Assembly: GCA_002700095.1 (NCBI GenBank)
Contig: PACL01000039.1
Coordinates: 82,212-146,211 of the forward strand
Source of the DNA: Fulvimarina sp.
GTDB lineage: Bacteria; Pseudomonadota; Alphaproteobacteria; Rhizobiales; Rhizobiaceae
DNA: 64,000 nt
Direction: 5' to 3'
Each line of letters opens with the position of its first letter. Positions within the stretch are counted from its first letter, which is position 1. Positions 28,635-32,653 of the stretch are shown piece after piece. The translations under genes were made by a program, and so were the position numbers. The notes beneath the pieces were generated by a model, which did not search any database, was not told where the DNA came from, and worked only from the letters and a program-made list of their open reading frames with translations.

Positions 28635-30011
28635 TCAGTTCGAGAGGCTCGCGACGTCCTCGTCGCCCTTCAGGCCGATCTCGAATTTCTGCAGATATTC
28701 GTTGGGCCGCGAGCCGTCATATTCGACGCCATCAATGAACTCGGCCGTCGAGGGCTTGTAGCCGTCGGTCTCGGGAATGTCGGCGGCGTCGAGGAGGCCG
28801 TCGTCGATGAGCGAGGCGGCGGCCTGTCTGTAGATGTCCGGGCGGTAGACGCTTTTGGCCGTCTCGGCATACCAGTCGTCGGACTTCTCTTCCGCGATCT
28901 GGCCCCAGCGGCGCATCTGGGTGAGATACCAGACGGCGTCGGAGTAATAGGGATAGGTGGCGAACTTCTTGAAGAAGACGTTGAAGTCCGGCGCCGGGCG
29001 CTTGTCGCCCTTCTCGTATTCGAAGGTGCCGGTCATCGAATTGGCGATGACTTCGGCGTCGGCGCCGACATATTCGGGCCGCGCCAGGATCTCGACGGCC
29101 TCCTTGCGGTTTTCCGGGCTTTCGTCGAGCCATTTGCCGGCGCGGATCAGCGCCTTGGTGAGGGCGATCGTCGTCTGCGGGTTCTCCTCGACGAACTTCG
29201 CGGTCAGGCCGAAGACCTTTTCCGGATTGTCCTTCCAGATCTCGTAGTCGGTGATGACCGGCACGCCGATGCCCTTGAAGACGGCCGCCTGGTTCCACGG
29301 CTCGCCGACGCAGTAGCCCTGGATGGTGCCGGCCTCGAGCGTCGCCGGCATCTGCGGCGGCGGCGTGACGGAGAGGAGAACGTCGGCCTTCACCTGGCCG
29401 GACGTGTCCGACGGCGTGTAGTAGCCGGGGTTCAGCCCGCCGGCGGCGAGCCAGTAGCGCAGCTCGTAATTGTGGGTCGAGACCGGGAAGACCATGCCCA
29501 TGTTGAAGGGCTTGCCCGACGCCTTGTACTGTTCGACCACCGGCTTCAGGGCGCTCGCCGAAATCGGATGCTGCGGCCTGCCCTCGGCATCCTTGGCGAT
29601 GTGCGTCTTCATCTCGGCCCAGACGGCGTTGGAGACGGTGATGCCGTTGCCGTTGAGGTCCATCGAGAAGGGCGTGACGATATGCGCCTTCGTGCCGTAG
29701 CCGATGGTGGCGGCCAGCGGCTGGCCGGCCAGCATGTGGGCGCCGTCGAGTTCGCCGGTGATCACCCGGTCGAGCAGCACCTTCCAGTTCGCCTGGGGCT
29801 CGATGGTGACGTAGAGACCCTCGTCCTCGAAGAAGTGCTTCTCCTTGGCGATGGCGAGCGGCGCCATGTCGGTCAGCTTGATGAAGCCGAACTTCAGCTC
29901 GTCCTTTTCGGGGATCAGCATCTCGGCGGAAGCCGGCAGAACCGTCAGGGCGGCTCCGGCGATGGCTGCGCGAAGAAGAAGACGGCGGGTAATCGCAGTC
30001 AGGATCGGCAT
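28635..30011 (-). CDS. nrtA: Nitrate-binding periplasmic protein NrtA
   Basis: 458 residues from ATG 30011 after GGGAGA; TTG 30017 would add two. The N-terminus [22 protein letters not shown] resembles a Tat-type signal. The substrate-binding fold resembles NrtA/Nas[43 protein letters not shown] and [12 protein letters not shown]. It is the first structural gene after the regulated leader. NasS encoded upstream shares the same fold but has no signal peptide. Confidence 0.95.
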
Positions 30012-30417
30012 GAACAAAGCTCTCCCGTGGCCTGGCGTGGAAACGCACCGGCTTGGCGATGTCTGGAAAAAGAAAAAGGCTGCCCGACCCTTCCCGTCAC
30101 GACCCGAAGTCTGTGACGATGCAAAGAAGTGTCGGCAGCCTTGCCAGTGGCGCCCGCCCTTGGACGCCGAATGCTGAAGACGACTATGGTCGCCTCACGG
30201 AACCCTGTTTAGAACAAGCCGAAGCGTGGTGCAATGCGAAATGGGGGATTTACGCGAGATTTTTGGGCGGTAGGAGATTATGAATAGAATTTAGGCAGGA
30301 TGAATTCGCCTTAGGCATCTCGGGTGCAAGCCAAGTGTGCAAGCGCACGCCCTTTCGCATACCACTGAAAACGAGCACTCGCGGAGGGATCAACGTAGCT
30401 CATGACAATTGAGCTCT
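30012..30417. promoter_or_regulatory. Long leader and promoter region of nrtA
   Basis: 406 bp with no gene, between hicA and nrtA. The part nearest nrtA (listed separately) folds into a terminator. The distal part is AT-richer than its surroundings and should hold the promoter. I searched for a sigma-54 motif (TGGCAC-N5-TTGC) and found none. The ribosome site GGGAGA is near 30020. Confidence 0.6.
30067..30192 (-). terminator. Nitrate leader attenuator, likely NasT-controlled
   Basis: Read on the minus strand: a small hairpin CGAC-CATA-GTCG (30181-30192), then GGCTGCCGAC pairing with GTCGGGCAGCC (one bulged G), then TTTTTCTTTTT. Between the outer arms lies a second hairpin CGTCAC/GTGACG with a GAC-TTCGG-GTC tip (30095-30118). 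This is a textbook intrinsic terminator 55 nt before nrtA. ANTAR regulators such as NasT bind paired hairpins in leaders and prevent termination. I could not match the canonical hexaloop residues, so the exact ANTAR site is unproven. Confidence 0.8.
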
Positions 30418-30615: not shown

Positions 30616-30858
30616 TCAATGCCGGGGATTTGGGATCCGGGACAACTGCTCCGCCATGAAGTGCACCGGAATTTCAGACGTCTCGTAGCTGGGGCCGTTG
30701 AGTTCGATCAGATCCGCAAGTGCTCCGAAAACCTTGTCCCTCAGGCGGTCCAGGCTGGCTGCCTCGATCGACAGGCCGGCGACGTCGTCGCTGCTGGCAA
30801 CCCAGACGCTCGCCTCCTCGTCCCAAACCGCTCGCACGATGATCGACGCATGACGCAT
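30616..30858 (-). CDS. hicB: HicB-like (DUF1902) antitoxin
   Basis: 80 residues with the DUF1902 pattern AVWDEEASVWVASSDDVAGL followed by a helical region LDRLRDKVFGALADLIELNG. DUF1902 is the HicB-type partner of HicA toxins. ATG 30858 is preceded by GGAG at 8-nt spacing. Its first 118 bp overlap the 3' end of the open nasS frame in a different frame, suggesting the module arrived later. Confidence 0.82.
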   Translation of the reverse strand: MRHASIIVRAVWDEEASVWVASSDDVAGLSIEAASLDRLRDKVFGALADLIELNGPSYETSEIPVHFMAEQLSRIPNPRH

Positions 30859-32063
30859 GGGTTTTCTCCGAGAGTTTTAATGTCTCGCCGAAATTGGCAT
30901 GTGACGAGCGGATTTGCGAGCCCGGCCCCTCCCCCCTCCGCGTCGAACAACCCCGCCGGCCTGTCGCCAGCGTCGCCGGTGACGGCGCCGGCGCCCGGAT
31001 CGCCGACCACGCCCGTCGCGGCATCGAAAAGCTGCGGCGAAAACGTCTCGCCGGCGATCGTCAGGCCGTGGTCGGAGAAGGGGGCGTCGCCCCAGCCGGC
31101 CATCTGGCGATAGAGCCAGCGGCCGTGGCCGTGGTCCGGCCGGTTGGCGCCCGAGCCGGCAAAGACCATGAAGTCGGGAATCGCGCGGCTGCGGCCCGGC
31201 GCCGTCTCCAGGCGGCCCGTCAGGCCCGGCATCAGCGCCGCTTGCTCGACGTCGAGCCGGTCTGGCCCGGCGAGAAGCGTGGCGAGTTCGGGGACGTTGT
31301 CCGCGTCGGCGCACCATGCGGCGGCGTCGCCGAGGGCGAGGAGGAGGTTCGCCAGCGTCTCGGGGTTCTCCTCGGCGAAGGCTTTTCGCACGCCCAGCAC
31401 CTTTTCCGGCCCGCGCCGCCAGATCTCCGCCCGGCTGGTGACGATGCGCCCGGCGCCGCGACGGACCGCGATCGTGCCCCAGGGCTCGCCGGCGCAAAAA
31501 CCGTCGATGCCGCCGCCGGCCAGCGCGTCGGGCATCAGCGGCGGCGGCACCACGGTGATCTCGACGTCCGTCTCCGGCGCAAGGCCGCAGGCCGCGAGCC
31601 AGTAGCGAAGGTCGTAGTTGTGGCTCGAATGGGGATGCACGACGGCAAGCCGCAGCGGCGTCCCGCCCGCTTCGCCGCGCTGGCGAACCACCGCTGCCAA
31701 GGCCGCGCCGGCGGTCGCGGGAGACGCGTCGTAGCCGGACGGCCCCAGTCGGTCCATCGCCGCGGCGACGGCGTTGGAGACGGTGACGCCGTTGCCGCCG
31801 AGCGCCAGCACCATCGGCGCCAGCATCGGCACGGGCAGGGGGCCGAGGCCGAGATTGGCGGCGATCGGCATCGGCGCCAGCATGTGGGCGCAGTCGAACT
31901 GGCCGACGCCGATGCGGTCGCGCACCGTCGCCCAGGAGGTTTCGCGCTGCAGGGAGAGAATGATGCCGCGTTCCTCGGCAAAGCCCTTGGCCGCGGCGGC
32001 GACGATGACGGCGCTGTCGAGGAGCGGGACGTAGCCTGCGCGGATGAAACTCGGCCCGGCCAT
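30741..32063 (-). CDS. nasS: Nitrate sensor NasS, with an altered C-terminus
   Basis: 440 residues as an open frame. It is NrtA-like without a signal peptide: IRAGYVPLLDSAVIVAAA, GNGVTVSNAVAAAM, HSSHNYDLRYWLAACGL and GFCAGEPWGTIA. NasS binds NasT and releases it when nitrate or nitrite is present. The family-like part ends near residue 385 (LFDAEGG). The last roughly 55 residues are basic and unlike NasS, and the final 39 are the hicB gene read in another frame. The likely cause is loss of the original stop when hicBA arrived or a frameshift in the nearby G-rich tract. Confidence 0.85.
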   Translation of the reverse strand: MAGPSFIRAGYVPLLDSAVIVAAAAKGFAEERGIILSLQRETSWATVRDRIGVGQFDCAHMLAPMPIAANLGLGPLPVPMLAPMVLALGGNGVTVSNAVAAAMDRLGPSGYDASPATAGAALAAVVRQRGEAGGTPLRLAVVHPHSSHNYDLRYWLAACGLAPETDVEITVVPPPLMPDALAGGGIDGFCAGEPWGTIAVRRGAGRIVTSRAEIWRRGPEKVLGVRKAFAEENPETLANLLLALGDAAAWCADADNVPELATLLAGPDRLDVEQAALMPGLTGRLETAPGRSRAIPDFMVFAGSGANRPDHGHGRWLYRQMAGWGDAPFSDHGLTIAGETFSPQLFDAATGVVGDPGAGAVTGDAGDRPAGLFDAEGGGAGLANPLVTCQFRRDIKTLGENPCVMRRSSCERFGTRRRASGLPAATTSPACRSRQPAWTA

Positions 32064-32653
32064 CAGTCGTCTCCGAGAAGGGTATAGGCGGAAACGAGGT
32101 TGGCGGCGACCTCGCCGATCCGGCGGTTCTCGTTCATCGCGGTGCGGCGCAGGAGCTTGTAGGCGGCGGCCTCGTCGAGCTTCTTCACCTTCATCAGGAT
32201 GCCCTTGGCGCGGTCGATGGTCTTGCGTTCGGCGAGTTCGGAGCGCGCCTCGGCGAGCTCGCGGGACAGCCGGCTGACGGCGTTGAAGCGGGAGATCGCC
32301 ATTTCGAGGATCGGCTTGATCCGCTCCTTCTTCAGCCCGTCGACCACATAGGCCGAGACGCCCGCCTCGATGGCCGCCTCGATCTCGGCGGTGTCGGAGC
32401 GATCGACGAACATCGCCATCGGCCGCTTCACCACCCGGGAGACCTGGAAGAAATGCTCGAGCTGGTCGCGGTTGGGATTCTCCAGATCGACGACGATGAC
32501 GTCGGGCTCCAGCTTCTCGATGCGCTTCACCAGCCCCTCGACGGTGGTCACGACCGAGACGTTGCCGTAGCCGGCCTCACGCAGCCCCTCTTCGATGATC
32601 GAGGCGCGCAGGCCGTTGTCATCGACGAGAAGGATGTTGAGCGGCTGCGACAT
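32063..32653 (-). CDS. nasT: ANTAR antitermination regulator NasT
   Basis: 196 residues from ATG 32653; the longer track ORF is not supported. The receiver-like domain (LNILLVDDN, VIVVDLENPNRDQ) occupies about 1-120. The C-terminal ANTAR domain (ERKTIDRAKGILMKVKKLDEAAAYKLLRRTAM) binds RNA leaders. Free NasT lets polymerase read through leader terminators of nitrate genes; NasS sequesters it without nitrate. The stop overlaps the nasS start by one base. The predicted target leader is in front of nrtA, 2 kb downstream. Confidence 0.95.
   Translation of the reverse strand: MSQPLNILLVDDNGLRASIIEEGLREAGYGNVSVVTTVEGLVKRIEKLEPDVIVVDLENPNRDQLEHFFQVSRVVKRPMAMFVDRSDTAEIEAAIEAGVSAYVVDGLKKERIKPILEMAISRFNAVSRLSRELAEARSELAERKTIDRAKGILMKVKKLDEAAAYKLLRRTAMNENRRIGEVAANLVSAYTLLGDD

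Follow-up and report, generated by a model that had tools for sequence, protein, structure and literature searches.

The window, a stretch of 64,000 nucleotides, lies in the 5.6-Mb draft genome (100 contigs, 93% complete) of a Jiella relative. On its minus strand, nasT is followed by nasS, hicB, hicA, nrtA and further nitrate transporter genes (Table 1). We assigned nasS by its NMT1_2/NrtA-like fold and its position next to nasT, which encodes a receiver-ANTAR protein; known NrtA and CmpC structures match NasS residues 5-354. The native part of NasS is 91% identical to its counterpart in J. pelagia and 88% identical to that in the sister species, Aurantimonas sp. 22II-16-19i. An AlphaFold2 model is confident for residues 1 to ~350 and falls to pLDDT values <50 over residues 374-440.

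Table 1. Features of the nasTS-hicBA-nrtA region of the window.
Feature	Position	Strand	Description
nasT	32066..32653	-	receiver + ANTAR; Pfam ANTAR E=5e-19, Response_reg E=6e-11
nasS native part, residues 1-377	30933..32063	-	nitrate sensor, NrtA/CmpA relative, NasT partner; Pfam NMT1_2 E=1e-69
lost nasS stop	30930..30932	-	GGA (residue 378) vs TGA in all genus relatives
nasS run-on tail, 63 codons	30744..30932	-	next stop 30743-30741
nasS run-on/hicB overlap	30741..30858	-	118 nt, out of frame, about 39 codons
hicB-type antitoxin (putative), DUF1902, 80 aa	30616..30858	-	Pfam PF08972 E=2e-18
hicA-type toxin (putative), 64 aa	30418..30612	-	Pfam PF07927 E=1e-6; 86% identical to J. endophytica hicA at the same site
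nrtA, nitrate-binding protein of the downstream transporter	28635..30017	-	Pfam NMT1_2 E=2e-98

In Paracoccus denitrificans, NasS acts by nitrate-sensitive binding of NasT (PMC3795266). The locus resembles that system in the adjacency of nasT and nasS, the NMT1_2-type sensor with its ANTAR partner, and downstream nitrate genes preceded by a leader with a terminator-like stem; it differs in the C-terminal run-on tail of NasS and in the presence of hicBA between nasS and nrtA. The nrtA leader itself (30017-30340 of the window, minus strand) is strongly conserved, two relatives showing identities of 92% and 88%, and contains the terminator-like stem at 30095-30072. It is likely to be a NasT antitermination leader; an Rfam search of the intergenic region and this leader gave no match.

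The hicB and hicA genes have the arrangement of class 2 hicBA modules (PMC10865869), in which a small HicB of 63-103 codons that lacks a DNA-binding domain is encoded directly upstream of hicA. Here hicB comes first, the two genes of 80 and 64 codons are 3 nt apart, and DUF1902 was the sole domain recognised in HicB, with no DNA-binding domain among the matches; the pair is thus a putative toxin-antitoxin module. Unlike in such modules, the upstream run-on gene overlaps the hicB start region. A ribosome-binding-like GGAG stands shortly upstream of the hicB ATG, and a simple scan for a sigma-70-type promoter of hicB found none. The sister-species hicB is 92% identical, the differences falling 1/1/7 on codon positions 1/2/3, a pattern that suggests a constrained gene, though there are few differences to count.

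The nasS frame (32063-30741, minus strand) is open for 440 codons. We compared its 3′ end across ten genomes of the genus in all. In each of the nine relatives read, a TGA at the equivalent point terminates NasS after GLFD (GLYD in one), giving proteins of 372-390 residues; the two nearest relatives end in DRPAGLFDAEG-stop (J. pelagia) and DRPAGLFDAQG-stop (Aurantimonas sp. 22II-16-19i). The window reads DRPAGLFDAEG-GGA-GAGLANPLV, with the codon GGA in place of the TGA. Native NasS is therefore complete, its last residue being 377 (LFDAEG); nothing is missing from its own end, GDAGDRPAGLFDAEG, after which the native 3′ flank, gctcgcaaatccgct, follows before hicB is reached; J. pelagia, which has no hicBA at this place, shows the flank too. 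In a three-way alignment the G-rich tract at the nasS end, gaggggggagggg, shows a single T-to-G difference in GGGG-T-GA and no change of length relative to J. pelagia. The stop codon of the orthologues has thus become a sense codon in the same alignment column, and the next stop lies inside hicB. A sequence-only reading of this DNA had proposed that nasS lost its stop and runs into hicB, and had suggested an alignment with relatives; that alignment bears the proposal out. The reading also placed the NasS-like end near LFDAEGG beside a G-rich tract: place and tract are correct, but the native protein ends one residue earlier, the second G of that string being the GGA codon.

Aligned with its relatives, the run-on comprises 63 residues, not the about 55 first estimated, whereas the statement that its last 39 codons are hicB coding sequence in another frame agrees with the overlap found here. 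In random frames of the window, which has a G+C content of 68%, a stop is met after a median of 66 codons, and 52% of frames run for at least 62; past the stops of 23 putative genes in the window, 8 frames stay open for at least 62 codons. The length of the tail is therefore at chance level. The tail is predicted to be disordered and, among the loci searched with tblastn, its matches are confined to hicB DNA read out of frame, in the window itself and in the sister species. An extended NasS is absent from the nine other genus members and from the Aurantimonas and Fulvimarina relatives, so that homologous proteins ending in the same tail, which would have spoken against a stop loss, were not encountered. 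NasS proteins of other genera continue for about 20 residues beyond the equivalent GFFD motif, and a disordered tail is therefore probably tolerated. The tail appears meaningless and shows no sign of a new function; the extended NasS probably retains nitrate sensing and its hold on NasT.

The presence of hicBA at this site varies in the genus. Aurantimonas sp. 22II-16-19i carries hicB at the same site, with the nasS stop intact and hicA gone; J. endophytica has an intact hicBA downstream of an intact nasS stop; and at the nasS site of J. pelagia, J. pacifica and J. avicenniae no hicBA was found. Relative to nasS, hicB stands in frame 2 in the window, 0 in Aurantimonas sp. 22II-16-19i and 1 in J. 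endophytica. The module may be ancestral with frequent loss, or may have entered the site repeatedly. In Aurantimonas sp. 22II-16-19i, hicB (L051:5207-5500) shares the reading frame of the nasS gene upstream of it, and loss of that nasS stop would therefore yield a NasS-HicB fusion. In another genus member, a hicB of 74% identity sits beside a hicA near a contig end and away from nasS (L035:151-549, genome G005), so the module is not confined to one site within the genus.

Extension of one gene into the next by loss of its stop is an established source of same-strand overlaps in prokaryotes (PMC3887535): a point mutation in the stop prolongs the first gene to the next in-frame stop within the second. 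Nothing essential differs here, and the overlap of 118 nt is long, as chance gives where stops are rare. We consider a recent, nearly neutral stop-loss substitution that produced an ordinary same-strand overlap the likely explanation of the sequence. A single T-to-G change would have turned the nasS TGA into GGA, and ribosomes passing the former end would translate 63 more codons, across the hicB ribosome-binding and start region and out of the hicB frame. Termination would come after 118 nt of hicB, so that NasS, otherwise complete, would carry a disordered tail. HicB, with its presumed antitoxin function, would still be made from its own start, the initiation of which the run-on could slightly hinder; re-initiation there after termination at such a distance would be unlikely. 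Along the window's own lineage, T-to-G changes amount to 0.5-0.8% per site, from which, as a rough estimate, a few stop losses per genome are expected. A scan of the window for other stop losses in this lineage flagged no clear one, which indicates that such events are not common here.

The main competitor is a systematic Illumina miscall, GGT being called GGG, in which case the nasS stop is not lost and the gene ends normally. Among systematic Illumina errors, the reading of GGT as GGG is the most frequent by a wide margin (PMC3295828), and the difference seen here, known from assembly sequence, matches it in both base change and context: the lost base, T in the minus-strand GGGG-T-GA, fits the error context exactly. 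A few bases further along, the window again departs from J. pelagia by a change to G after GG, and the draft, incomplete state of the assembly also favours an error. The sequencing error in the G-tract that the sequence-only reading named as a refutation would thus be a miscalled base and not an indel. Against this, consensus errors are rare at good depth, the prior for one at normal depth is low, and the window as a whole bears no miscall signature in its own lineage, where GGT-to-GGG changes at 3 of 386 sites are no clear excess over T-to-G changes at 21 of 4022 other T sites, a comparison of low power. We regard a miscall as unlikely, yet worth keeping in mind, and hold that the substitution is probably real in the organism, which is a judgement and not a measurement.

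A different kind of irregularity was noticed in the assembly of J. pelagia HL-NP1. Over 80 kb (L088-L091), GAGCTC is depleted: it occurs 8 times there, whereas the 64-kb window has 18 copies and 60 kb of sister-species sequence has 27. GAGCCTC/GAGGCTC is in excess, and three isolated insertions of a single base within conserved genes lie at or beside a GAGCTC-type motif. This has the appearance of an indel error tied to the motif in that assembly and may explain its completeness of 84%.

It had also been suggested that translation of NasS through hicB could alter production of the antitoxin and connect the toxin pair with nitrate sensing. In favour of lowered or coupled HicB synthesis, the two genes are co-directional and the run-on covers the hicB start, but the frame relation, the tail and even the presence of hicBA vary between relatives, termination falls far from the hicB start, and the tail is predicted to be disordered. 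We therefore find no support for such a link and consider a functional run-on very improbable; that a real run-on through the hicB initiation region would shift the balance of HicB to HicA, and that transcription of nasTS would thereby tune the pair, seems just as doubtful. The idea that arrival of hicBA, or a frameshift in the G-tract, replaced the original nasS 3′ end, prompted by the adjoining hicBA and the hicB codons in the tail, has next to no likelihood, since the native end and flank are those of the hicBA-less J. pelagia, the tract shows no length shift indivisible by three before the tail, TGA becomes GGA by one substitution, and the sister species has hicB at the same site behind an intact nasS stop; the three-way alignment rules out both.

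The likely stop loss in nasS is of little importance by itself: such events are ordinary, and an error of sequencing is possible. The case provides a clean example of how, in high-G+C DNA, one base can create a long out-of-frame overlap that resembles a gene fusion, and a check for the GGT-to-GGG miscall should precede any assignment of function to such overlaps.
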